Positions 4,568 through 39,200 of a stretch of 64,000 bases of DNA are shown here, in pieces; positions within the stretch are counted from its first letter, which is position 1; each line of letters opens with the position of its first letter. The stretch lies in assembly GCF_019278525.1 (NCBI RefSeq), contig NZ_CP058986.1, forward strand, positions 4,107,001 to 4,171,000, written 5' to 3'. This DNA comes from Polaribacter sp. HaHaR_3_91. Its GTDB lineage: Bacteria > Bacteroidota > Bacteroidia > Flavobacteriales > Flavobacteriaceae. The notes under the pieces are model-generated. The model saw nothing but the letters and a program-made list of their open reading frames with translations. It did not search any database and was not told the DNA's origin. The translations under genes were made by a program, and so were the position numbers.

Positions 4568-7500
4568 TTGAAAAATTTTTTGAAAAAAATATTTTTATTT
4601 CTTGCTTTTGCTTTCATAGCAAACACCTCTTATGCGCAAACAGATAAGGATACAGATTCCATAACAGTAAAAAAAGATACTCTAGACTTAAGATATAACT
4701 TTAAAAAAGAGCAAACTGGTGGTTTATTTTTAGATTATCTGGCAGAGAAAGAAATTATTTTTGATAAAGATTTAAACAGGTATGTAATTTTCGAAAAAAT
4801 AGGTGATTACTACACCAAAACCCCCATTTATCTTACACAAAGAGAATACGCAGATTATCGTTTAAAACGAGATATGACGCAATATTACAAAGACAAAGTA
4901 AGTGCTACGAACTCTAACAAAAAAGGATCTAAAGAAGCTCAAAAAGATCTACTACCAACATATTATGTAAAATCTGACTTATTTAAAACTATTTTTGGAG
5001 GGAGTGAAATTAAAGTAACACCTACTGGAAGCTTAAATTTAAAGCTCGGTTTTATTTATCAGAATACAGAAAACCCACAATTATCCGAAGAAAACAGAAG
5101 TAGTTTTACGTTTGATTTTGATCAACAAATTAATGCAAGTATTCGTGCACAAGTAGGTACACGTTTAGATTTCACAGCAAATTACGACACACAATCTACT
5201 TTCGATTTTCAGAATTTAGTAAAAATTGGGTACGAGCCAACAGAAGATGATATTTTACAAGGAATAGAAGCAGGTAATGTTTCTATGCCTATTAAAAACT
5301 CTTTAATAAACGGAGCTCAAAGTCTTTTTGGGGTAAAAACACAATTAAAATTTGGGAACACTAATATAACCGCTGTTTTCTCTCAACAAAACTCAGAAAG
5401 TACCACAACTGTTGCAGAAGGTGGTGCTTCTATACAAGAATTTCAATTAAAGGCTACGGATTATGATAATGATCGTCACTTTTTCTTATCACAATATTTT
5501 ATAGATAACTACGCAAACTCTCTTAAAAACTATCCTTTAATTAATAGTCAGGTTAGTATTACAAGAGCAGAAGTTTGGATTACCAATACAAGCTCTAGTA
5601 CAGAAGATTATAGAAGTATTGTAGCTCTAGCAGATATAGGAGAATCTAATACGGATGTTTTGGTAAATCAAACAGGAGAAGTACAGCCAACAAGTCCGCC
5701 AACAACTACAGGTGGAAATATCCCAACAAACGAATCGAATAATTTATCTAATTTACTAACGACAACTAGTGGTATTAGAAATATTTCTACCGTAAATAGT
5801 ACTTTACAACCTTACAACATGAGTGAGGGCACAGACTATTCTGTATTAGAAAATGCAAGAAAATTAAACACTAGTGAGTTTACGTTAAACTCTCAATTAG
5901 GTTTTATTTCTTTAAATAGAAGGTTAAACGATGGTGAAGTTTTAGCGGTTGCTTATGAATATACAATTGCAGGTGGCGTTTCTGGAAGTACAAAAACTTC
6001 TTTTAAAGTAGGTGAATTTTCTAACGATGGTATTCAAGCTCCACAAACTCTAGCTGTAAAATTATTACGTAGTGAAATCTTAAAAACTAACAGAGAGAGA
6101 GTTGTTAATGGTGCTACTATTACAGAATCTTTTCCTACATGGCGTTTAATGATGAAGAACGTGTATGCATTAGGTACTTTTCCTTTATCTCAAGATGGTT
6201 TCTATTTCGAAATTCAATACAGAGATGACCAAACAGGTATTTCTTCTAATGTTTTACAAAATGCAAATACAGCAGGCATACCTAACCTACCATTAATACA
6301 GGTTTTTAAGTTAGACCAATTAGACCAAAGTCAATATAGAACTCCAGACGGATATTTTGATTATGTAGAAGGTATTACCGTAAATTCTCAAAACGGATTT
6401 ATCTTTTTCCCAGAACCAGAACCTTTTGGTAATGATTTAGTTCAACAGAACACCAATGATGTTGGTTTAGATGAAACGGTAGATAACAATTATTTATTTA
6501 AAGAACTTTATTTAAACACCAAAATAAACGCACAAAACAACTATCAAAATAAAGACAAGTATTTCTTAAAAGGATATTTTAAATCCGAAAATTCTGGAGG
6601 AATACCAATTGGAGCATTTAACGTACCAAGAGGGTCGGTTACAGTAACTGCAGGAGGTAGACAATTGGTAGAAGGTGTAGATTATGTGGTAGATTATCAA
6701 TTGGGTCGTGTGCAAATTATAGACACTGGCTTGCAAGCTTCTGGAACTCCAATTAGTGTTTCTACAGAAAACAACGCGGTGTTTAATCAACAACGTAAAA
6801 CCTTTATGGGGGTTGATGTTGAACATAAGTTTTCAGATAAATTTATTATTGGTGCCACCATTTTAAATGTAAATGAAAGACCTATTACTCCAAAAGTTAA
6901 TTTTGGTTCAGACCCAATAAACAATACCATGTTTGGGGCAAATATAGATTACACTACAGAGGTTCCTTATTTTACAAAATTGGCAAATAAATTACCTTTT
7001 GTAGACACAGATGTACCTTCTAATTTATCGGTTAGGGCAGATATGGCATATTTGCTTCCAGGAACGCCAAGTGGTATTGATGTAGCGGGTACTGCAACTT
7101 CTTATATAGATGATTTTGAAGCTTCTCAAATACCAATTAGTATCTTATCACCATTAGATTGGCATGAGGCAAGTACTCCAAAATTTTTCACAGGTTTTAA
7201 TGGAGATCAAGAAGATTTATCTTACAATTACCAAAGAGGAAAATTGGCATGGTATAATGTAGACCAAATTTTCTACGGAGCTGGAGATACACCATCAAAT
7301 ATTAATGCAGCAGAACTTTCTAGAGCAGAAACAAGACAGATTAATTATAGGGAATTATTCCCTAATGTGCAGTTAGATATTACACAGAACTCAGTAATAA
7401 GAACTTTAGATTTAGCTTATTTTCCATCTGAAAGAGGTTCTTATAATTTTGATACAGGTATTAATGTGAAAGCAGACGGAACTTTCTCTGACCCACAAAA

Positions 7501-10500
7501 TAGATGGGCGGGAGTTATGAGAGCTTTAACAACCAACAATTTTGATCAAGCAAATGTTGAATATGTACAGTTTTGGGTAATGGATCCTTATGAAAATTAT
7601 TCCATTACCGAGACAGAAGGTTTACCTATAGGCATGAATCCGGAAGATCCATCAAACCAAATTGGAGATTTATACATAAACTTAGGTAATGTTTCTGAAG
7701 ACATCTTAAAAGATAGTCGTAAAATGTTTGAAAACGGTTTACCAGAAACTGGTGGAGAAATAAATACCGCAGAAACAACTTGGGGAAAAGTACCAACAAA
7801 CTCATCTATAATTTATGCTTTTGATGAAAATGATGAGTCTAGAGCAAACCAAGATCTTGGATATAATGGTTTAAATGATGCTGAAGAATTTGCGAAGTAC
7901 AGTACAACTCTTCCTAACTTTAGTAAATTAAACCCTAATGATCCTGCATCAGATAATTTTCAATATTTTAGAGGTAGTGAGTTAGACGCAAATCGTGCTT
8001 CTATAATTACTAGGTACAAAGATTACAACAATACACAAGGAAATTCTCCAACCTTAAATCAATCTACAGAAAGCTACCCTACTTCATCTACAACCTACCC
8101 AGATGTAGAAGATATTAATAAAGATCAGACCATGAATACCGTAGAAAGTTACTACGAGTATAAAGTTTCTATGAATAGAAATGATTTGGTTGTTGGAAAG
8201 AATTTTATTGTTGATAAAAAAACAACAGATGTAACTTTAGAAAACGGAGCAAACCAAACAACAACTTGGTATCAATTTAGAGTACCTATTAGAAGCGGAA
8301 CACCTGTAAATGGTATTTCAGACTTTAATAGTATTCGTTTTGTTAGAATGTTTTTAACTAGTTTTAAAATACCAGTAGTACTTCGTTTTGGAGAGTTAGA
8401 TTTGGTACGTGGAGACTGGAGACGTTATACAAAAACATTAGACGAATCTATTTCTACACCAGAAGATTTAGATGAAAATGAATTAAAAGATTTTGAAGTT
8501 GGTGTTGTAAGTATAGAGCAAAATGAAGGAAGCTACATTCAGCCTCCAGGAATAGAAAGAGAGCAATTACAAGGTAGTACAAGCGTACAATTACAAAATG
8601 AACAATCTGTAACCTTAAAAGTAAATAATTTACCTGCAAACGAAACCAGAGCCATTTATAAAAACATAAGCATTGATTTAAGACGATTTAAAAATTTAAA
8701 AATGTTTATGCACCTTCAAAAAAATGAAGGAGCTCTTGCTATTAATGACAATGATTTTTCTGCAGTTATAAGATTAGGTACAGATTTAGATGATAACTTT
8801 TATCAAATAGAACTCCCTTTAAAAGTATCTCAAAATGGTACTTCTGCTTTAGATATTTGGCCAGAAGCAAATAATTTAGATGCTTTTCTAGAAACTTTTG
8901 GATTGGTAAAATTAGAAAGAGACAGAGCTGGTGTTGCCATTACAGACATCTATACTTCTATTGAGCAAGATACCGAAATACCGTATACAATTTCAGTAAA
9001 AGGAAACCCAACTTTAGCAGAATTAAAAACAATTGTTTTAGGAGTAAAAAACAAAACAACATCGCCAATTAGTGGTGAGGTTTGGTTTAATGAGTTGCGT
9101 TCTTCTGGTTTTGATAATGAAGGTGGATGGGCAGCTGTACTAAATGCAGATGCAAATTTTGCAGATGTAGCAAATGTATCTTTATCTGGTAGTATGTCTA
9201 CCGTTGGTTTTGGTAATGTAGAAGACAGAGTAGGACAACGTAGTTTAGATGAAACAAAACAATATGATGTTGCTACTACTATAAATTTAGGTAAAGTATT
9301 AACTCCTAAAAAATGGGGAATTCAATTGCCAATGAGTTATAGTATTGGTGAACTTTATATAGATCCAAAATACGATCCTCAGTTTCAAGACGTAGAATTA
9401 GCAGATGCTTTAGGTGAAAATGAAAATAGTGAGTTTTCTAGAGATTATACCAAAAGAACAAGCATTAGCTTTACAAACGTTAAGAAGAATAGAAATCCTA
9501 ATTCTACAAAAAAACCTAAGTTTTATGATGTAGAAAACGTAGCTGTTTCTTATGCTCATAACAAAGAATATCAACGAAATTACAACATTAAAAAACGTAT
9601 TAACGAAAGTGTAAGAGCTTCTGCATCTTATAATTTTAGTTTCGATTCTAAACCATTTGAACCATTTAAAAATAATGATTCTATTTTTAGAAATAAATAT
9701 TGGCAGCTTATAAAAGACTTTAATTTTAATCCAATCCCTAAAACTTTTGCAATTAATTCTAGTATCAACAGAAATTATAACGAACAACAATCTAGAAATT
9801 TAGTTTCAGGTTTATCCGCTCAACCAGAATTAAAACAACGTAGATTTTTATTCGATTGGGATTATACCATCGGTTTCGATTTAACAAAATCGTTACAAGT
9901 AAACTTTAATGCAACCAACAGTTATATTTACGATACTTTTGGTAGCAATGATGAAATACAGGTTTTTGATGACTTTTTTAATACCGGAAGAGCAAATCAT
10001 TACCATCAAGCATTAAACGGAACGTATAATTTACCTATCGATAAAATTCCTTTTTTAAAGTTTATAAAAGCAGACTATGCATATACTGCAGATTTTGACT
10101 GGCAAGCAGCTCCTCAAAATACGATAGACGTTAATGGTGTTGATGTCCCTTCTGTAAACTTAATAGGAAACACGATACAAAATGCAAATACACACAATTT
10201 AAATACCACTATTAATTTTGATGCTTTTTACAAAGGGCTTGGTTTCGAAAAATTATTATTGACTAAAAATCAACGTAAAAGTGCAAAAGGAGATCAAGGT
10301 ACTGGTTTACCAAGAACTCCTGGTAGAGTTAAGCAAAACAAAAAATTATCTATCGGTAAAAAGATCTTAAAAGGTACTTATGACGTTCTAACTTCGGTAA
10401 AACAAGGGAAGATAAGTTATTCAGAAAACAATGGTCAATTATTACCAGGGTATACAGAAGATGTTGGTTTTTTAGGAGGTGCTCCTACTTCTTTTGCTTT

Positions 10501-11683
10501 TGGTAGCCAAGTAGATATTAGAAATAAAGCTTTAGAACAAGGTTGGTTTGTGTCTCGAAACAATGGAGAAGAATATTATAGTAAAACTTACAGCAAAACA
10601 CATTACAATAAATTAGATTACACATTTACATTAAAGCCAATAAAGGATTTAAATATAGATGTTAGAGGTAATAAAATACAAACAAGAGATCTCTCTCAGC
10701 AACTAGACCTTGTATCTGGCAGCAATGAATTTGAAAATACCCCTTTCTTTGAAACGGGAAACTTTAGTACCAGTTACTCTATGATTTCTACTGCATTTAC
10801 AGACGGAGATGTTTTATTTCAGAATTTAAGAGATTATAGAAGTATAATTTCAAACAGATTAGCTACAGAAAATTTAGTACCTGCAAGTGGTTTTGGAGCC
10901 AATAGTCAGCAAGTTTTATTACCTGCATTTGTAGCTGCTTATTCTGGTAAAAGTCCAGATAAAGTAAATACCGGTCTTTTTAGAGATATCCCTATACCTA
11001 ATTGGACATTGCGTTACAATGGTTTAATGAAGTTTAATTTCTTCAAGAAAAACTTCAGTAATTTTGTAGTTTCACATGGTTATAGATCTTCTTACACTGT
11101 ATCTAGTTTTACCAATAACTTACAGTATGATGCCAATAACCCGTACGCAAATATAAATGCTGCCAACAATTATGAATCAGAATTATTAGTATCTGCAGTT
11201 ACTTTAGTAGATGAATTTTCTCCACTAATTAAACTAGATATGAAAATGAGAAACTCATTCTCTTTAAGAGGAGAAATAAAAAGTGACAGAACGCTTACTA
11301 TGAATTTTAATAACAGCACCTTAACAGATATTTCTGGAACAGAATTTATATTTGGAATGGGATATGTTTTTGAAGACGTAAAATTCAATACTCGTTTTAC
11401 AGGAAAGAAACAAACACTAAAAGGAGATGTCAATTTAAGAGCAGATGTGTCTTTAAGAGATAATATTACACAAATTAGATCTGTAGATGAAGATAATGAT
11501 CAAATTAGTGGTGGACAAAAACTTTTTTCTATTAAATTTACCGCAGATTATAGATTAAGTAATAGTTTAACCGCATCATTCTATTACAACCATCAAACAT
11601 CTAGATATGCAATCTCTACCACTTTTCCTAGACAAGCGATTAATGGAGGATTTAATATTATTTATAACTTAGGAGGAAATTAA
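4568..11683 (+). CDS. sprA: Type IX secretion outer-membrane translocon SprA
   Basis: SprA is the giant beta-barrel that forms the protein-conducting pore of the type IX secretion system, needed for gliding adhesins and secreted enzymes. The 2371-residue length fits the family. An N-terminal signal peptide (LKKIFLFLAFAFIANTSYAQ) is followed by a long series of amphipathic beta strands. Characteristic family segments include DNNYLFKELYLNTKIN near residue 640 and GEVWFNELR near 1500. The C-terminus ends in aromatic-rich barrel strands (GGFNIIYNLGGN). The start is TTG, because no in-frame ATG precedes the signal peptide and the TTG lies 5 bases after ruvA. A second TTG four codons downstream (4580) is the alternative. 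It is followed by gcvH, a typical order. Confidence 0.95.
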   Translation: MKNFLKKIFLFLAFAFIANTSYAQTDKDTDSITVKKDTLDLRYNFKKEQTGGLFLDYLAEKEIIFDKDLNRYVIFEKIGDYYTKTPIYLTQREYADYRLKRDMTQYYKDKVSATNSNKKGSKEAQKDLLPTYYVKSDLFKTIFGGSEIKVTPTGSLNLKLGFIYQNTENPQLSEENRSSFTFDFDQQINASIRAQVGTRLDFTANYDTQSTFDFQNLVKIGYEPTEDDILQGIEAGNVSMPIKNSLINGAQSLFGVKTQLKFGNTNITAVFSQQNSESTTTVAEGGASIQEFQLKATDYDNDRHFFLSQYFIDNYANSLKNYPLINSQVSITRAEVWITNTSSSTEDYRSIVALADIGESNTDVLVNQTGEVQPTSPPTTTGGNIPTNESNNLSNLLTTTSGIRNISTVNSTLQPYNMSEGTDYSVLENARKLNTSEFTLNSQLGFISLNRRLNDGEVLAVAYEYTIAGGVSGSTKTSFKVGEFSNDGIQAPQTLAVKLLRSEILKTNRERVVNGATITESFPTWRLMMKNVYALGTFPLSQDGFYFEIQYRDDQTGISSNVLQNANTAGIPNLPLIQVFKLDQLDQSQYRTPDGYFDYVEGITVNSQNGFIFFPEPEPFGNDLVQQNTNDVGLDETVDNNYLFKELYLNTKINAQNNYQNKDKYFLKGYFKSENSGGIPIGAFNVPRGSVTVTAGGRQLVEGVDYVVDYQLGRVQIIDTGLQASGTPISVSTENNAVFNQQRKTFMGVDVEHKFSDKFIIGATILNVNERPITPKVNFGSDPINNTMFGANIDYTTEVPYFTKLANKLPFVDTDVPSNLSVRADMAYLLPGTPSGIDVAGTATSYIDDFEASQIPISILSPLDWHEASTPKFFTGFNGDQEDLSYNYQRGKLAWYNVDQIFYGAGDTPSNINAAELSRAETRQINYRELFPNVQLDITQNSVIRTLDLAYFPSERGSYNFDTGINVKADGTFSDPQNRWAGVMRALTTNNFDQANVEYVQFWVMDPYENYSITETEGLPIGMNPEDPSNQIGDLYINLGNVSEDILKDSRKMFENGLPETGGEINTAETTWGKVPTNSSIIYAFDENDESRANQDLGYNGLNDAEEFAKYSTTLPNFSKLNPNDPASDNFQYFRGSELDANRASIITRYKDYNNTQGNSPTLNQSTESYPTSSTTYPDVEDINKDQTMNTVESYYEYKVSMNRNDLVVGKNFIVDKKTTDVTLENGANQTTTWYQFRVPIRSGTPVNGISDFNSIRFVRMFLTSFKIPVVLRFGELDLVRGDWRRYTKTLDESISTPEDLDENELKDFEVGVVSIEQNEGSYIQPPGIEREQLQGSTSVQLQNEQSVTLKVNNLPANETRAIYKNISIDLRRFKNLKMFMHLQKNEGALAINDNDFSAVIRLGTDLDDNFYQIELPLKVSQNGTSALDIWPEANNLDAFLETFGLVKLERDRAGVAITDIYTSIEQDTEIPYTISVKGNPTLAELKTIVLGVKNKTTSPISGEVWFNELRSSGFDNEGGWAAVLNADANFADVANVSLSGSMSTVGFGNVEDRVGQRSLDETKQYDVATTINLGKVLTPKKWGIQLPMSYSIGELYIDPKYDPQFQDVELADALGENENSEFSRDYTKRTSISFTNVKKNRNPNSTKKPKFYDVENVAVSYAHNKEYQRNYNIKKRINESVRASASYNFSFDSKPFEPFKNNDSIFRNKYWQLIKDFNFNPIPKTFAINSSINRNYNEQQSRNLVSGLSAQPELKQRRFLFDWDYTIGFDLTKSLQVNFNATNSYIYDTFGSNDEIQVFDDFFNTGRANHYHQALNGTYNLPIDKIPFLKFIKADYAYTADFDWQAAPQNTIDVNGVDVPSVNLIGNTIQNANTHNLNTTINFDAFYKGLGFEKLLLTKNQRKSAKGDQGTGLPRTPGRVKQNKKLSIGKKILKGTYDVLTSVKQGKISYSENNGQLLPGYTEDVGFLGGAPTSFAFGSQVDIRNKALEQGWFVSRNNGEEYYSKTYSKTHYNKLDYTFTLKPIKDLNIDVRGNKIQTRDLSQQLDLVSGSNEFENTPFFETGNFSTSYSMISTAFTDGDVLFQNLRDYRSIISNRLATENLVPASGFGANSQQVLLPAFVAAYSGKSPDKVNTGLFRDIPIPNWTLRYNGLMKFNFFKKNFSNFVVSHGYRSSYTVSSFTNNLQYDANNPYANINAANNYESELLVSAVTLVDEFSPLIKLDMKMRNSFSLRGEIKSDRTLTMNFNNSTLTDISGTEFIFGMGYVFEDVKFNTRFTGKKQTLKGDVNLRADVSLRDNITQIRSVDEDNDQISGGQKLFSIKFTADYRLSNSLTASFYYNHQTSRYAISTTFPRQAINGGFNIIYNLGGN

Positions 11684-31621: not shown

Positions 31622-31984
31622 TTATGCTATCTTTATTGCCTCAACTAATTCATCAAAATCTTTGGCTTTATCAAAAAAGGCAAACGCTCCGTATTTAAAA
31701 CACGTTTTTCTTAGCTCTGTACTTATAGAAAAAACAAAGACTTTAGTATCCTTTTTATCTTTCTGAAGCATTCTTAACAACTCTATCCCATTACCATCAG
31801 GCAACTTCAAATCGAGTATTATTACATCAAAATTAGTTTTGTTAAAAATAGAAATTGCTTCATGTAAAGATTTTGTCAAGCAAATATCTCTTATACTATC
31901 AATTTGCTTAGCGGCATCAAAAATATTTCTACCTATAAAAGGGTTGTCTTCCACTATCAGTAAATTATGAAATGCTGCTTTCAA
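31622..31984 (-). CDS. Stand-alone response regulator receiver domain
   Basis: A 120-residue single REC domain. The acidic pair is in LIVEDNPFIG, the phospho-acceptor Asp in VIILDLKLPDGNG near residue 58, the switch Ser in VFVFSIS near 85, and Lys in AFFDKAKDF near 104. There is no output domain, so it acts by protein contact or as a phosphate relay. It lies just downstream of the NarL-type regulator and giant kinase on the same strand (113-base gap), so it is a likely second target of that kinase. This pairing is inferred. Confidence 0.9.
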   Translation of the reverse strand: MKAAFHNLLIVEDNPFIGRNIFDAAKQIDSIRDICLTKSLHEAISIFNKTNFDVIILDLKLPDGNGIELLRMLQKDKKDTKVFVFSISTELRKTCFKYGAFAFFDKAKDFDELVEAIKIA

Positions 31985-32097: not shown

Positions 32098-32751
32098 TTA
32101 AATTCCCAATGAAGTTAATCCTTCTTGAATGGCATATTTTGTTAATTCAGGAATAGTGAATAAATCTAATTTTTTCATAATGTTATTTCGATGTACATCA
32201 ACCGTTTTAGGACTTAAAAATAAGATTTCTCCTATTTCTTTAGAAGAACGCCCTTCTGCAATTAACTGTAATACTTCTTTCTCCCTAGAGCTTAATTGTG
32301 TCTTTTCTATTCCTTTAGGCTCTTTTAATACCAAAAGAAACTCTTGATTAATATCATTTGAAAGATATTTTTTATTTTGCATTACAGTGCATATTGCTGT
32401 AATCAATTCATCTGAATCTCCATCTTTTAACAAGTAAGCAAAGGCACCAGCTTTAAACATACTCTGTATAAACTGCTTGCTAGAATGCATAGAAAGACCA
32501 ATTATCTTTATTTCTGGATTGTTTTTATGAATCTGCCTTGTTGCCTCTATACCATTTAAACCAGGCATAGCAACATCCATAACAACAACGTTTGGCAAAA
32601 GTTTTGGACATATTTTTATAGCCTCTCTACCATCGGAAGCTTCACCAATTATGTGCATATTAGACCTCTGCTCTATAATGTTTCTTAAACCATCTCTTAA
32701 TAGCTTATGATCATCTACTAATACAATTTTAATATCTTTTAAATAACTCAT
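32098..32751 (-). CDS. NarL/FixJ-type response regulator
   Basis: A 217-residue regulator. The receiver domain (about 1-125) has acidic pair VDDH, phospho-acceptor Asp in VVMDVAMPGLNG near 58, Ser in GLSMHSS and Lys in YLLKDGDSD. A C-terminal LuxR-type HTH (about 150-210) has LSSREKEVLQLIAEGRSSKEI and PKTVDVHRNNIMKKL. Its ATG overlaps the kinase stop by 4 bases, so the two are translationally coupled and form a two-component pair. Target genes are unknown. Confidence 0.95.
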   Translation of the reverse strand: MSYLKDIKIVLVDDHKLLRDGLRNIIEQRSNMHIIGEASDGREAIKICPKLLPNVVVMDVAMPGLNGIEATRQIHKNNPEIKIIGLSMHSSKQFIQSMFKAGAFAYLLKDGDSDELITAICTVMQNKKYLSNDINQEFLLVLKEPKGIEKTQLSSREKEVLQLIAEGRSSKEIGEILFLSPKTVDVHRNNIMKKLDLFTIPELTKYAIQEGLTSLGI

Positions 32752-35700
32752 TTAGATAAAGGTATAAAAATTTTAACAGTTGTACCCATATTTATTTTTG
32801 ATTTTATTGTAAATTTCCCTTGAATATTTTTAATTCGTTCCTGAACCGTAAACAAACCAAAACCTGAACCTGAATGATTGTGAAGACTACTCAATATTGC
32901 TGTATTAAAACCAACACCATTATCTGTAATAAAAATATCTAACCCTAACTCATTCTTATCAAGGTCTAAAGTTATCAAAGATGCATCTGCATATTTTATA
33001 GCATTGGTTAACACTTCTTGTATGCTTCTATACAGTAAAATAGATTTTACTTCATCTAGATTAATATTATCTACATTAGTATTAACTACACAAGCAATCT
33101 TATGCGTAGTCTCTACATTATCAAACAACCAACTTAGCGCTTCAATAATACCTAATTGATATAATACCGGAGGAGAAAGTTCATACGTAATTTTTCGACT
33201 ATTTTCTAAAGCTTCAGAAATATGAGTTTCAATAAATTTTAAATCCTCGTCAATCAATTTTAATTGAGGTCTTTTTTTCAACTCATTAATTTTCATTTTT
33301 GAGATTACTAAAGACTGACTTAGATGATCATGTATGTTTGTTGCAATTTCTTTTTTCTGTTTTTCTTCTATTAACGTCATTTCTGTTGTTAATTTCTGAA
33401 GTGATGATTGGTATACTTCTATCTCTTGCTTCGCCAGTACCCATTGCGTAATATCTCTTGCTGATGAAATATAGGAATTAATCATATTATCTTTATAAAC
33501 TGGAGAGGATAAAAACTCTAACCAAACGTAATGACCTTCTTTATGCAACACTCTACAACTAAATGCATCAGTATACATATTACTAGATGTTCTTTCAGAC
33601 ATTACTTTTAATAAAGGCTCAATATCTTCTTTATGAACAATGCCAAACACTTTTCTCCCTAAAAGCTCTGATTGCTCATAACCTAATAAGTTATGTATAG
33701 AAGGACTAATATATTTAAAGCTACTATCAACTTCATGCAAACAGATTAAATCATTAGAATTATCCGTTAATATACGGTACATCTCTTCTGCTTTCTCGAT
33801 TTCACTTCTTGCCTCTTTTTGAGCTGTAATATCTTGATTGGTTCCTTTTAAACTAACTACCTCCTTATTTTCTCCGAATATAGGCTTACATATAGACCTT
33901 ATAGTTTTTTCTACATTATTTGGTAAACAAATTCTAAACTCAATATCATAAGGTATTCCTTTAGTGTAAACTAAAGATGCTGCATTTTCAAAATAATCAA
34001 GATCATCTTTATGAATTCTATTTAAGATATCTACTTGCTCTGGTGTTGGTTTATTTAAATCAAAACCCCAAATACGAAACGTTTCATCAGACCATTCTGA
34101 TTTTTTTGTTGAAAAGTCAAACGACCAACTACCAACTTGTGCTAACTCTTGTGCTTCTTTTAACCTATTTAAAGATTCTCTTTTTTCAGATTCAGCATCT
34201 TTTATATTTTGTATACTCTGTATACTAACAGGAACCGTTTTTTGCTGTTCCAAATTTAGAGGAATTGGAATTGAAATTAGGGCCGCAAACTCATCCCCTT
34301 TAAAAGTTTTATAATTTACTTCGGATGTAAATGTTTTCTCCTTATTCCATATTGAAATTATAAATTCGGCAAACACTTTATGCGCACCTGTACCAAATGT
34401 GTTTTCCATTTTTCCATCTAAAAACTCTTTTTCACTTTTTGCTTTAAAAAGTTTTACAGTAGCTTTATTCACTTTGTTTATGACTACTTTTTTAAGTATC
34501 GAAACAAAAACCTCTGGATGCAGCTCTAAATAAACTCTAAAATCAAGAATTTTAAGCTTTTTAAGTTCTTCTAATTGTTTTATCACTCCAGATAAATCTC
34601 CATTCCAAACGGAAATCGTAGCGTTATCAAAGAGATTTCTATACCTTTCGGTTATTATTAAATTTTCGTGTTCTATTTGTTTTCTCTCGGTAATATCTTG
34701 AAAAACACCTCTTCTACCAATAACCTCTTTTTGCTCATTAAATAAAGGCTGAACTATCATTCTACCCCAAACCTCTTCTTTCTTTTTATTAATTAACCTA
34801 AGTTCAATATCATAAGGAATACCATGCTGCTCAAGATCTAAAGTCACTTGTTTCATCTTTTTTTGCGACTCTTTATCTAAAAAATTAATAATCTCTTTTA
34901 ATGGAGGCACTGGGTCTTTTGAATCCAATCCAAAAATATGAAATAGAAACTCAGACCAAACAAAAGTCCCCGTAGCATTATCATATTCCAAATACCCTAT
35001 TTTAGCCAAATTACTAGCCTCGTTCTTAGAATACTCACTTTTTTCTAACAATTCTAAAGAGGTTTGAATATTTTTCTTAGAAACCTCTAACTCAAACTGT
35101 GCTTTTTTAGACGCAGTAATATCTTGTAAAACTCCCCTTCTTCCTATTATTTCATTATGTTTATTATAAACAGGCTGACCAAAATTTCTTACCCAAACTT
35201 CTTCTTTATCATTGGTAACAAGCCTCAACTCACAATCTAAAGGAGTCCCATTTTTAATTAGTTCTTGAGTTGCTTTCGTATATTTCTCGACAGATTCATC
35301 ATCAAAAATTGCAATAACATCTTCACGTGATGGAATCCCTTTTTTTATATCAAACCTTAAAATATCATAAACATAATCAGACCACATAAAAGTATCCGTT
35401 GCATTATCATATTCTTGGTAGCCTATTTTAGCTATTTCACTTGCTTTTCTCAAGGAATATTCCTTTTTCTCTAAAAGTTTTAGAGCATTTTCTATCTTTT
35501 CTTTAGATAGTTCTAATTCCTGTTGCGCTTCCTTAGAACCTGTAATATTCTGCAAAACACCTCTTTTACCAACAATTTCATTCTTTTCATTATAAACAGG
35601 TTGCGCTACATTCCTTAACCAAACCACTTCGTCTTTTATATTATTAAATTTCAACTCTAGATCGTAAGAAACACCTTTAGTAGTAAGTGCTGTAGTTGCT

Positions 35701-38700
35701 TGTACAAACTTTTCTTGCGATTCTATAGTCATACTTTCTAAAAACTCTACCTTTGATGGAATTCCATTTTTTGGATTTAATCCAAAAATATGATACACGT
35801 ATTCAGACCACACAACAATATCTGTTAACAGGTCATGCTCCCAATACCCTATTTTAGCCACTTTACTAGCCTCCCCCATAGCAAACTTACTTTTTCTTGA
35901 CAGTTCTAGGGAATTCTGAACATTTTCTTTAGAAATTTCTAGTTCTAGTTGAACATTTTTAGAAGCTGTAATATCTTGTAAAACACCTCTTCTTTTAATA
36001 ATTTTATTTTGTTGATTGTAAACCGGTTCAACTGCAATTCTAATCCAAACTTCTTCCTTTCTTAGGTTTGTCAACTTCAACTCAATATCAAAAGAAATGC
36101 CCTCAGTATCGAGTTTTAAGCTAGCATCCCTCATTTTTTCATTAGATTCCTTGTCAAAAAATTCTGCTATTTCTCTACGTGAGGGTACTGGTTGTTTTAT
36201 ATCAATTCCAAAAATATGATATGTATATTCCGACCAAGAAAAAGTTTCAGTTGCAATGTCATACTCTATATACCCTATTTTAGCCATTTTACTAGCTTCA
36301 TTCTTAGAGAACTCACTACTTTCCAACAACTCTAAAGACCTCTGAATCTCATCTTTAGAAATTTCTAATTCTATTTGAGCATTTTTAGCGGCTGTAATAT
36401 TATGTACTACACCTCTTCTTCCAATAATTTCATTTTTATCGTTATAAATAAGATGAACCACTTGTCTTACCCATAACTCTTTATTTTTTTTATTAATTAA
36501 TTTCAATTCAATATCATAAAGAGTGCCTTTTAAACTAAGGTCTACAGTAGATTTTGCTAATTTTAACTGAGAATCTTTATCGTAGAAAGCAACCATATCC
36601 TTACGAGACGGAATACTTTCACTTGGGTCTAAACCATAAATTTCATACACATAATCAGACCAAACAAAAGCATCAGTTGCTATATCATACTCCCAATGTC
36701 CTATTTTAGCAATCCTGCTTGACTCAGTTAAAGAGTGATCTCTCTTTTCTAAAAGATGTAACGAAGATTGTATCTTTTCCTTAGACAATTCTAATTCAGC
36801 TTGTGCTTTTTTCCATTCAGAGATATTTTGCGACACACCTCTTCTGCCAATAATTTCATTTTGTTTATTATATATAGGCTTAGCAACATTTCTTACCCAA
36901 ACTTCTTCTTTATTTTTATTAATTAATTTTAAAACAAGATTATAAGGTGTACCATGTGTATTCAGTTCTACAGTGGCTGCTAATAATTTATCTATCGACT
37001 CTTTATCACAAACCTTTACTACTTCTTCATATGGTGGAATTCCTTCATTAGGGTCTAATCCATAAATATGATAAATATAATCGGACCATGTATATGTATC
37101 TGTTGCTGCAATATAATCCCAATACCCTATTTTTGCCAAATTACTAGACTCATTTAAGGAGTAGTCCTTTTTTTCTAGTAACTCTAAAGAAATTTGAATC
37201 TTTTCATTAGAAAGCTCTAAGGCTAATTGGGCTTTTTTAGAAGTTGTAATATTCTGTAAAAGCCCCCTTCTTCCAATAACTTTATTTTGTTTATCGAATA
37301 CAGGTTGCACTATATTGCGTACCCAAATTTCTTCCTTTTTTTTATTAGTTAACTTTAATTCAATATCATAAGGCGTTCCACTTGAATTCAACTCTAAATT
37401 TACTTGCACAATCTTTCTTTGAGATTCTTCATCAAAAAGTGCTACAATTTTTTCTCGTGGAGGAATTCCTTTTTTAGGATCAAATCCAAAAATTTCATAA
37501 TGATAATCAGACCAGACAATATTAACCTGCTCGTTATTATACTCCCAATAACCAATTTTCGCCATTCTACTAACTTCATTCAAGGCATAATCCTTTTTCT
37601 CTAAAAGCTCTAGAGAAGATTGAATCTTTTCTTTTGAAAGTTTTTCTTCAAATTGGGCTTTTTTAAAGGCTGTAATATCCTGCATAATACCTATTCTACC
37701 TACAACTTCATTTTGTTGATTGTAAATAGATTGAGCTACAGTGCGCTCCCAAACAACTTCATTTTGTTTGTTGACAAACCTTAACTCTACATCACAAGAA
37801 ACTCCTTTTACAGCAACATCTTTTAGAGCCTGTAGTATTTTTTCTTGTGATTCGTCATCGTATAGAGAGAGCAGTTCTTTTTTAGAAGGAATTCCATTTA
37901 CGGGATCCATTCCATAAATAGTATACATATAATCAGACCAAGTAAAAGTATCTGTTTTAATATCATATTCCCAATATCCTATTTTAGCAACTTTACTCGC
38001 TCCCTCTAAAGAGTGTTCCTTTTTTTCTAATTCTTCTAAAGAATCTTGAAGTTTCTTCTTTGATAACACTCTCTGCGTAATATCTCTAGCAGAGGTAACA
38101 AAGTAACTAATTTCACCTCCTTCATAAACAGCAGATGACAAAAACTCTAACCAAACAAAATGACCTTCTTTATGATGAACTCTAACAGGAACAGCTTCAG
38201 AAATAACACCTTTACTAATCAACTTGTTTGATACTACTTCGTTTAAAAACTTAAGATCTTCTTTATGAACAATACTAAAAACTTTTTTACCTACTAAATC
38301 TAATTGTTCATAGCCTAATATATTTTTTATAGAGGGGCTAATATATTTAAAAGCACCATCTGGTTCTTGTAAAAAGATTAAATCATTTGAGTGATCAGTT
38401 AGTATACGATACATCTCTGTAGTTTCTTCAATTACTTTTTCTGCAGATTCAAATTTCTGCTTGTAAGTTAGAGGTTCAAAGACGTCTTTTATTTTAAAAA
38501 CACCTGTTAACTGCTTGTTTAAATCAAAAAACCTTAAATAAAGATAAAGAAGTGCACTATAAAAGACTGTAAAAATTCCTTTAGATATAAGTCCTGATAT
38601 GATAATTGACTTTAAATTATCTATTCCCCAAAAATTAAGGGTTACAAAGAATAATGTATCAAAACTTACAACAATTAACATGGTAATACAAATGCGTAAG

Positions 38701-39200
38701 AATAAACATTCTACTCTTTTAGATATATATTCGAATAAAAGTATAATTAAAAAAGCATCTAAAAACAATACCACTGTACCAATAAATAATTCTCTTAAAC
38801 TTATATCGAAAAGGTTTACAGATGCATTAAAAGTTCCTTGTATTGATGTATTGTTAAAATTTAAGTTTAATGCTTGTACAAGAATTGTCATTACTATATT
38901 TACTATAAACAGCGCATAAATTAGTTTTTTTGTTTCACTAGCATCTTCTTTTATATATACCATAAGTATTACAAAGAGAGATGCCGTAAAATAAACAACA
39001 GAGCCTGGAGAAACAAAGAAATTATCTGTAATTGAAACAGAAACCGTATTATATAAAAATAATTGTACAAATTGAAATAATCCCAGGCATGCAAACATGA
39101 CTCCAATACCCAACTGCTTTCTAAGGTGAAATAAAAAAAGAATTACCAAAGCAACTAAAGTGCCCTGCATAAACAAATGGGCTATTTGACTATAATTCAT
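32748..39200 (-). CDS. Giant multi-PAS sensor histidine kinase
   Basis: A 2150-residue membrane sensor. About seven hydrophobic helices fill residues 1-230. Twelve PAS-type domains follow: a classical PAS at about 266-385, eight tandem PAS units (about 386-1520) in exact 142-residue steps, an atypical PAS at about 1525-1670, another near 1690-1800 and a last classical PAS near 1810-1920 that closely resembles the first. The kinase core is HisKA_3-like with IATNIHDHLSQSL (His near residue 1957) and a HATPase with VLTNAIKYADA, ITDNGVGF and GFGLFTVQERI. It pairs with the overlapping NarL-type regulator. The ligand is unknown; the unusual feature is the PAS array. Confidence 0.95.
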   Translation of the reverse strand: MNYSQIAHLFMQGTLVALVILFLFHLRKQLGIGVMFACLGLFQFVQLFLYNTVSVSITDNFFVSPGSVVYFTASLFVILMVYIKEDASETKKLIYALFIVNIVMTILVQALNLNFNNTSIQGTFNASVNLFDISLRELFIGTVVLFLDAFLIILLFEYISKRVECLFLRICITMLIVVSFDTLFFVTLNFWGIDNLKSIIISGLISKGIFTVFYSALLYLYLRFFDLNKQLTGVFKIKDVFEPLTYKQKFESAEKVIEETTEMYRILTDHSNDLIFLQEPDGAFKYISPSIKNILGYEQLDLVGKKVFSIVHKEDLKFLNEVVSNKLISKGVISEAVPVRVHHKEGHFVWLEFLSSAVYEGGEISYFVTSARDITQRVLSKKKLQDSLEELEKKEHSLEGASKVAKIGYWEYDIKTDTFTWSDYMYTIYGMDPVNGIPSKKELLSLYDDESQEKILQALKDVAVKGVSCDVELRFVNKQNEVVWERTVAQSIYNQQNEVVGRIGIMQDITAFKKAQFEEKLSKEKIQSSLELLEKKDYALNEVSRMAKIGYWEYNNEQVNIVWSDYHYEIFGFDPKKGIPPREKIVALFDEESQRKIVQVNLELNSSGTPYDIELKLTNKKKEEIWVRNIVQPVFDKQNKVIGRRGLLQNITTSKKAQLALELSNEKIQISLELLEKKDYSLNESSNLAKIGYWDYIAATDTYTWSDYIYHIYGLDPNEGIPPYEEVVKVCDKESIDKLLAATVELNTHGTPYNLVLKLINKNKEEVWVRNVAKPIYNKQNEIIGRRGVSQNISEWKKAQAELELSKEKIQSSLHLLEKRDHSLTESSRIAKIGHWEYDIATDAFVWSDYVYEIYGLDPSESIPSRKDMVAFYDKDSQLKLAKSTVDLSLKGTLYDIELKLINKKNKELWVRQVVHLIYNDKNEIIGRRGVVHNITAAKNAQIELEISKDEIQRSLELLESSEFSKNEASKMAKIGYIEYDIATETFSWSEYTYHIFGIDIKQPVPSRREIAEFFDKESNEKMRDASLKLDTEGISFDIELKLTNLRKEEVWIRIAVEPVYNQQNKIIKRRGVLQDITASKNVQLELEISKENVQNSLELSRKSKFAMGEASKVAKIGYWEHDLLTDIVVWSEYVYHIFGLNPKNGIPSKVEFLESMTIESQEKFVQATTALTTKGVSYDLELKFNNIKDEVVWLRNVAQPVYNEKNEIVGKRGVLQNITGSKEAQQELELSKEKIENALKLLEKKEYSLRKASEIAKIGYQEYDNATDTFMWSDYVYDILRFDIKKGIPSREDVIAIFDDESVEKYTKATQELIKNGTPLDCELRLVTNDKEEVWVRNFGQPVYNKHNEIIGRRGVLQDITASKKAQFELEVSKKNIQTSLELLEKSEYSKNEASNLAKIGYLEYDNATGTFVWSEFLFHIFGLDSKDPVPPLKEIINFLDKESQKKMKQVTLDLEQHGIPYDIELRLINKKKEEVWGRMIVQPLFNEQKEVIGRRGVFQDITERKQIEHENLIITERYRNLFDNATISVWNGDLSGVIKQLEELKKLKILDFRVYLELHPEVFVSILKKVVINKVNKATVKLFKAKSEKEFLDGKMENTFGTGAHKVFAEFIISIWNKEKTFTSEVNYKTFKGDEFAALISIPIPLNLEQQKTVPVSIQSIQNIKDAESEKRESLNRLKEAQELAQVGSWSFDFSTKKSEWSDETFRIWGFDLNKPTPEQVDILNRIHKDDLDYFENAASLVYTKGIPYDIEFRICLPNNVEKTIRSICKPIFGENKEVVSLKGTNQDITAQKEARSEIEKAEEMYRILTDNSNDLICLHEVDSSFKYISPSIHNLLGYEQSELLGRKVFGIVHKEDIEPLLKVMSERTSSNMYTDAFSCRVLHKEGHYVWLEFLSSPVYKDNMINSYISSARDITQWVLAKQEIEVYQSSLQKLTTEMTLIEEKQKKEIATNIHDHLSQSLVISKMKINELKKRPQLKLIDEDLKFIETHISEALENSRKITYELSPPVLYQLGIIEALSWLFDNVETTHKIACVVNTNVDNINLDEVKSILLYRSIQEVLTNAIKYADASLITLDLDKNELGLDIFITDNGVGFNTAILSSLHNHSGSGFGLFTVQERIKNIQGKFTIKSKINMGTTVKIFIPLSK
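34640..38047 (-). repeat. Eight-unit tandem PAS-coding array, 426-bp period
   Basis: Equivalent Ile codons in the AK-I-G motif of successive units end at 37982, 37556, 37130, 36704, 36278, 35852, 35426 and 35000. Each interval is exactly 426 bases (142 codons), with no insertion or deletion in seven steps, while the encoded sequences have diverged. Outer limits are approximate. Recurrent motifs per unit are AKIGY.EYD, WSDY..., F/Y-G-D/N and GRRGVLQ(D/N)IT. Confidence 0.9.

Follow-up and report, generated by a model that had tools for sequence, protein, structure and literature searches.

A Polaribacter sensor histidine kinase with eight PAS units at an exact 426-bp period and linkers held in one heptad phase

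Tandem PAS domains are described, in the accessible parts of PMC3466315 and PMC6798134, as joined by linkers of heptad periodicity and arranged head to tail, with a proposed addition of torque along the axis. In YF1, according to PMC6798134, the response to light is opposite for linkers of 7n residues and linkers of 7n+1. The subject of this work is a 2150-residue sensor histidine kinase encoded in the window, a stretch of 64,000 nucleotides from Polaribacter sp. HaHaR_3_91 (contig NZ_CP058986.1, positions 4,107,001 to 4,171,000 of the forward strand), in which eight homologous PAS units follow one another at an exact period of 426 bp. As far as the consulted part of PMC6798134 goes, YF1 and YHF share with this array a dependence on seven-residue linker steps, regular tandem PAS domains, and coiled-coil linkers for which an integration of several signals has been proposed. 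They are engineered and contain one and two sensor PAS-type domains, whereas the array contains eight homologous units, with up to twelve in relatives, and its family offers natural heptad differences between homologous contexts. NifL, in the excerpted text of PMC3466315, has an amphipathic PAS-PAS linker with heptad periodicity, a torque or rotation model, and signalling that is disrupted by deletions, but it has PAS1 and PAS2 alone, in contrast to the long homogeneous array of the window kinase.

The array fills residues 385-1520 of the kinase (window positions 34641-38048, minus strand) and consists of eight PAS_3 units of exactly 142 residues each. By self-comparison and a profile built from the units, these are unit 1 (residues 385-526, 37623..38048), unit 2 (527-668, 37197..37622), unit 3 (669-810, 36771..37196), unit 4 (811-952, 36345..36770), unit 5 (953-1094, 35919..36344), unit 6 (1095-1236, 35493..35918), unit 7 (1237-1378, 35067..35492), and unit 8 (1379-1520, 34641..35066), all on the minus strand. 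The motif AKIG occurs eight times, at residues 405, 547, 689, 831, 973, 1115, 1257, and 1399, in seven steps of 142 residues. At an offset of 142, 583 of 2009 positions are identical in the self-comparison (29%), and identity is at most 11% at offsets of 30-1499 that are not multiples of 142. The unit profile scores each of the eight copies at 221-233 bits and places them in seven steps of 142; it also recovers a more distant ninth PAS_3 domain. The open reading frame (ORF), the AKIG positions, and the unit profile thus confirm the period of eight PAS units within a 2150-residue histidine kinase that a sequence-only reading of the window had reported. The positions given there for the motif (37982, 37556, and the rest of the series) mark where the minus-strand Ile codon begins, and its range of 34640..38047 locates the array with each end one base off. 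An assembly artefact, which that reading had kept in view, is unlikely because P0002, a protein from another assembly that is 99% identical to the window kinase, carries the same eight units.

The units have diverged to pairwise identities of 44.4-58.5% in protein and 61.0-69.5% in DNA. Tandem Repeats Finder reported no array at this site, as expected because DNA identity between units is only about 65%. Between fixed sequence anchors, each unit is composed of a PAS core of about 101 residues and a linker of 41 residues.

Linker length was compared in a homologue sample chosen by similarity to the query (120 listed of 403 above threshold), together with ORFs from fetched loci. The linker was measured from the Ile in the DIT motif that ends one unit up to the Gly in the AKIG motif of the following unit, and pairs were neighbouring profile matches less than 90 residues apart (100-bit count) or less than 100 residues apart (40-bit count). 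Pairs at least 100 residues apart, with another domain between, were left out of the 40-bit count, and the non-redundant set of the 100-bit count was made at 70% identity. At 100 bits or more, 317 of 317 pairs from 84 proteins or ORFs have linkers of 27 (6), 34 (50), or 41 (261) residues, as do 75 of 75 non-redundant linkers (3, 17, and 55, respectively). At 40 bits or more, 445 of 445 pairs fall at 20 (20), 27 (11), 34 (137), or 41 (277) residues, and 120 of 120 non-redundant linkers do so (4, 7, 49, and 60, respectively). No out-of-phase linker occurs among these 445 pairs, and no pair was lost through a missing anchor; at a 20-bit cut-off, 25 pairs without an anchor were discarded. The tandem array fits a heptad-phased class of tandem PAS proteins, with its linkers in one phase modulo 7.

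The PAS cores serve as an internal control. Their lengths range from 97 to 102 residues. Among 448 units that score at least 100 bits, 41 deviate from 101 by 1-4 residues, so the cores tolerate indels that are not divisible by seven. Linker hydrophobicity has a period of 3.48 residues in the 41-residue class (55 linkers) and 3.46 in the 34-residue class (17 linkers), which points to the period of a coiled coil rather than 3.6. In 11 context pairings, several of which have a protein in common, both flanking cores are more than 60% identical and the linkers are unequal; by eye, such contexts look as if one heptad had been lost within the helix. Parsimony on quick trees of 217 pairs counts 21 length changes with downstream cores and 19 with both cores. 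Strong length constraint through coiled-coil-linked stacking, as the sequence-only reading had proposed, is supported by the differences of seven and the hydrophobic period. The same reading expected homologues with other unit and linker lengths to speak against it; such homologues do exist, but every counted linker difference is a whole heptad, which strengthens the idea of rigid stacking.

A count based on motifs alone is in line with the rule once mis-anchored matches have been sorted by eye. Of its 377 matches, 353 have the correct anchor length and keep the phase, 8 keep it only by coincidence, and 16 are off register. The 8 coincidental matches, of 55 or 62 residues, begin 21 residues early as judged by eye. 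Eleven of the off-register matches were inspected, and the other five have the same length and first 12 letters as an inspected one. By-eye correction of a wrong Ile anchor returns 14 of the 16 to phase: linkers of 24, 31, 38, and 17 residues (13 matches) begin at a second Ile three residues into the linker, and one of 44 residues begins ten residues early. The 26-residue linker (2 matches) has no PAS end before it. At the array's borders, the linker from the first PAS_9 domain to a unit is 34 residues in 19 of 19 motif matches, and that from the last PAS_9 domain to the kinase motif is 42 residues in 33 of 33.

A broader profile extends the comparison to more distant PAS proteins (39 pairs), in which 31 of 32 non-redundant linkers share the same phase and 19 have 27 residues. 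The single exception has 23 residues, one in-phase linker has 69, and some units in this count score 16-22 bits. To judge from these sequences, the heptad rule probably applies to consecutive PAS domains in general. Particular to the array are its 41-residue linker (two heptads above 27), its homogeneity, and its unit number.

PadC, in the available text of PMC9587094, resembles the array family in that its natural linker lengths fall into discrete classes, many of them seven apart. In that account 54% differ by multiples of seven and there are -4 and +2 families, whereas the array pairs occupy one phase in 445 of 445 cases. The array fits the torque model as these sources present it, and more cleanly than PadC. 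The S-helix is described in the consulted section of PMC1592074 as a parallel coiled coil of about 40 residues that may lie between two PAS domains, like the array linker. The ERT signature given there is absent from the consensus of the 41-, 34-, and 27-residue linkers, a comparison made without an S-helix profile. Among solved structures, FixL (8js5, 273 residues; E 0.002) and a blue-light-activated histidine kinase (6ph4, 482 residues; E 0.007) match a two-unit stretch, though only distantly in sequence. The kinase misses the NCBIfam cut-off for FixL (276.8 bits versus 850).

Among the open-licence papers that searches on heptads and tandem PAS domains listed, none names a homogeneous long PAS array in its title or abstract opening, which does not prove that no such paper exists. 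A joint search for PAS domains, Polaribacter, and histidine kinase matched a single paper, whose title concerns plant phytochromes. Both torque addition and the heptad spacing of PAS linkers have been published before, and the array is an extreme, clean variant of them. It provides a natural experiment on torque or register signalling, with homologous pairs carrying linkers of 20, 27, 34, and 41 residues and arrays of 1-12 strong units. With it one can also ask directly how many sensory modules one kinase is able to sum, and whether a signal is diluted the farther from the kinase it arises.

The reading that we consider probable is that parallel coiled-coil PAS dimers are stacked head to tail on a rod that passes torque or register to the kinase. 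The protein would be a parallel dimer in which each linker forms one continuous helix of a two-stranded coiled coil, and the PAS dimers would stack head to tail along it. Each PAS domain, according to its state, would raise or lower the torque or shift the register of the rod, and the net value would set the balance of kinase and phosphatase activity and hence phosphorylation of the adjoining NarL-type regulator. Since heptad phase would have to be kept, linkers would gain or lose whole heptads only and the array whole units only, and the same need would account for the exact 426-bp period despite divergence. Over species time, arrays would grow and shrink through duplication, loss, and reshuffling of units. 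The array may also have a ligand-integrating or ruler role, which the sequence-only reading had floated. More tentatively, rod length may be set in two quanta, the 142-residue unit and the single heptad, so that phase would never be lost between membrane and kinase. If so, Polaribacter would hold a large natural set of rods in which the number and order of sensors vary and many small inputs are summed mechanically.

Several points weigh against stacked dimers that transmit torque. The dimer, the rod, and the torque are all inferred from sequence. The linker rule also holds in distant PAS proteins (31 of 32), so it is no special evidence for a new function. The homologues were chosen by query similarity, with 120 of 403 listed, and pairs at least 100 residues apart were excluded. 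The trees used to count length changes are quick, probably weakly resolved, and without a shuffle control, and whole-unit shuffling may inflate the count. No ligand or cofactor motif was identified in the unit consensus, and some units could be passive spacers.

The last of these points can be widened to most units, which would then form a variable-length stalk whose one task is to keep the membrane domain and the kinase in heptad phase. We regard this as unlikely, though it accords with the wide variation in unit number between species at constant phase and with a unit consensus in which no cofactor residue is prominent. Unit-specific sequence is nevertheless kept across species. Units 1-4 are 75-80% identical between the window kinase and P0015, and identity to P0006 is 65-89% for the units, 77% for the VUPS domain, 72-82% for the PAS_9 domains, and 95% for the kinase part. 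By these values, unit conservation appears about equal to that of the other sensory domains; lower conservation than in the kinase part is expected because a sensory region diversifies. A 19-row alignment of three-unit stretches shows several invariant core residues, and for a pure stalk a coiled coil alone would suffice.

Equal unit length could instead stem from recent tandem duplication or gene conversion, with no functional constraint on length. Younger duplicates do exist in relatives: units 5/6 and 9/10 of P0001 are 79% and 67% identical, and three neighbouring units of G029 form one supported group in the unit tree. In the window kinase, however, all 28 unit pairs have a synonymous divergence (dS) of 0.82-1.56 and a nonsynonymous divergence (dN) of 0.30-0.45 (NG86). 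The longest exact run between units is 26 nt (P 0.008), and it belongs to the one pair of 28 whose run is longer than in shuffled codons at P < 0.01. Mean unit identity is steady with distance along the array, save for the single pair 1-8. Matching units of P0001 and P0006 are 65-96% identical to those of the window in the same order, compared with only 44-58% within the window kinase; P0001 has two extra units, next to its copies of units 5 and 8. A unit tree was built from 74 units of at least 60 bits from the window and relatives, with 30 of 71 inner branches left open and an unsettled bootstrap; in it, window units 2, 3, and 4 cluster with units of other species (starred support). Unit order also differs, being 4-2-3 in G009 and 2-3-4 in the window. 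The units predate these species and have evolved separately. Linker lengths also differ solely by sevens. These results contradict a recent origin of the equal lengths, which is very improbable.

Past gene conversion, the other cause that the sequence-only reading had offered, is not supported and was rejected on the relation of identity to array distance, dN/dS, exact runs, and the unit tree: dS is near 1, runs reach at most 26 nt, and identity between proteins exceeds that within the protein.

Array size was counted in 121 proteins, namely the window kinase and 120 others, of which P0003 is the window kinase again with a later start. Counting units of at least 100 bits, there is no unit in 28 proteins, 1 in 18, 2 in 21, 3 in 9, 4 in 8, 5 in 4, 6 in 10, 7 in 5, 8 in 9, 9 in 3, 10 in 3, 11 in 2, and 12 in 1. 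The largest array, with 12 strong units, belongs to P0004 (3511 residues). At the glmS-linked locus, unbroken genes carry 8 units in the window, 11 in G029, 6 in G009, 3 in P. marinus, 3 in L053, and 2 in G020; the array of G004 has at least 7, with the contig ending within the gene. Array size varies between species and not within the sole near-identical pair. The phase-like variation between strains that the sequence-only reading had envisaged gains no support.

Exact identity of 26 nt or less is short for frequent slippage. That array length is a contingency locus, quickly variable between strains, is the least credible explanation, since unit number at the glmS-linked locus does differ by species but exact identity between units reaches at most 26 nt and the 99%-identical protein also has eight units (a weak comparison, n = 2).

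The kinase gene of G004, a draft genome, is seemingly split over two contigs that end inside it (L035 and L036), so array sizes may not be reliable where they come from drafts. The window genome is one contig of 4.2 Mb. In G029, a 3242-codon open frame (L031 5366-15091) contains 15 profile matches, and 11 of these reach 100 bits.

The kinase gene lies at 32748..39200 on the minus strand, as do its domains described below. Its ORF and Pfam matches give the order VUPS, PAS_9, eight PAS_3, a probable PAS, PAS_3, PAS_9, HisKA_3, and HATPase_c. The VUPS domain (PF20973, vitamin uptake-like sensor; residues 18-222, 38535..39149) matches Pfam at E 8.6e-61 and probably anchors the kinase in the membrane, as predicted from this domain; a search of open-licence literature for VUPS listed 18 papers, none with the domain as its title subject. 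The first classical PAS domain (PAS_9, residues ~263-384, 38049..38414) and the last (PAS_9 type, residues ~1807-1928, 33417..33782) had been called near-identical, and are in fact 60% identical over 122 residues. Between the array and the last PAS_9 lie a probable PAS domain with an insertion (residues ~1530-1665, 34206..34613), which was assigned by eye without a profile match of its own, and the ninth PAS_3 domain (residues 1679-1805, 33786..34166), which Pfam and the unit profile place outside the 142-residue period. Upstream of the kinase core, Pfam finds PAS_3 in 9 stretches and PAS_9 in 7, and these families overlap. The HisKA_3 dimerisation and phosphoacceptor domain (residues 1950-2013, 33162..33353) scores 24.7 bits against a cut-off of 24, and the HATPase_c catalytic domain (residues 2053-2149, 32754..33044; E 1.1e-13) scores 52.1 bits against a curated cut-off of 26.4. 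The 2150-residue protein is a PAS domain-containing HisKA_3 sensor histidine kinase. Its best-matching named relatives, by database titles, are from Polaribacter.

By ORF and Pfam, a NarL/LuxR-type response regulator (32098..32751, minus strand) overlaps the kinase ORF by 4 bp and is followed by a stand-alone receiver domain protein (31622..31984, minus strand). Upstream of the kinase are a DUF4270 protein and a protein whose domain make-up, two SIS domains and a glutamine-amidotransferase domain, is that of GlmS. Synteny was compared in 22 loci, 20 of which have matches of at least 40% identity; two places are represented twice (L037/L051 and L040/L052). Eighteen loci contain the kinase C-terminus, with a regulator match (at least 40% identity) in 16 of the 18 and a receiver in 16 of the 18, and a glmS match occurs in 8 loci. 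The order glmS, kinase, regulator, receiver is seen in L031, L033, L048, and L053, while L032 keeps glmS, kinase, and receiver with no regulator match at the 40% identity cut-off. By these matches the kinase-regulator neighbourhood appears conserved, and the NarL-type regulator is the likely cognate partner of the kinase.

G009 has a second PAS-rich kinase (L034 5541-10343), accompanied by a regulator and a receiver of its own; the fetched stretch contains no glmS match. In P. glomeratus (L049 3413-17206), a VUPS-bearing ORF (1013 residues) and the array kinase (1730 residues) are encoded apart, and four further ORFs of at least 150 residues lie between the two genes, which suggests that an ancestral gene was split or inserted into. 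The longest ORF in the window encodes 2371 residues at 4568-11683 on the plus strand.

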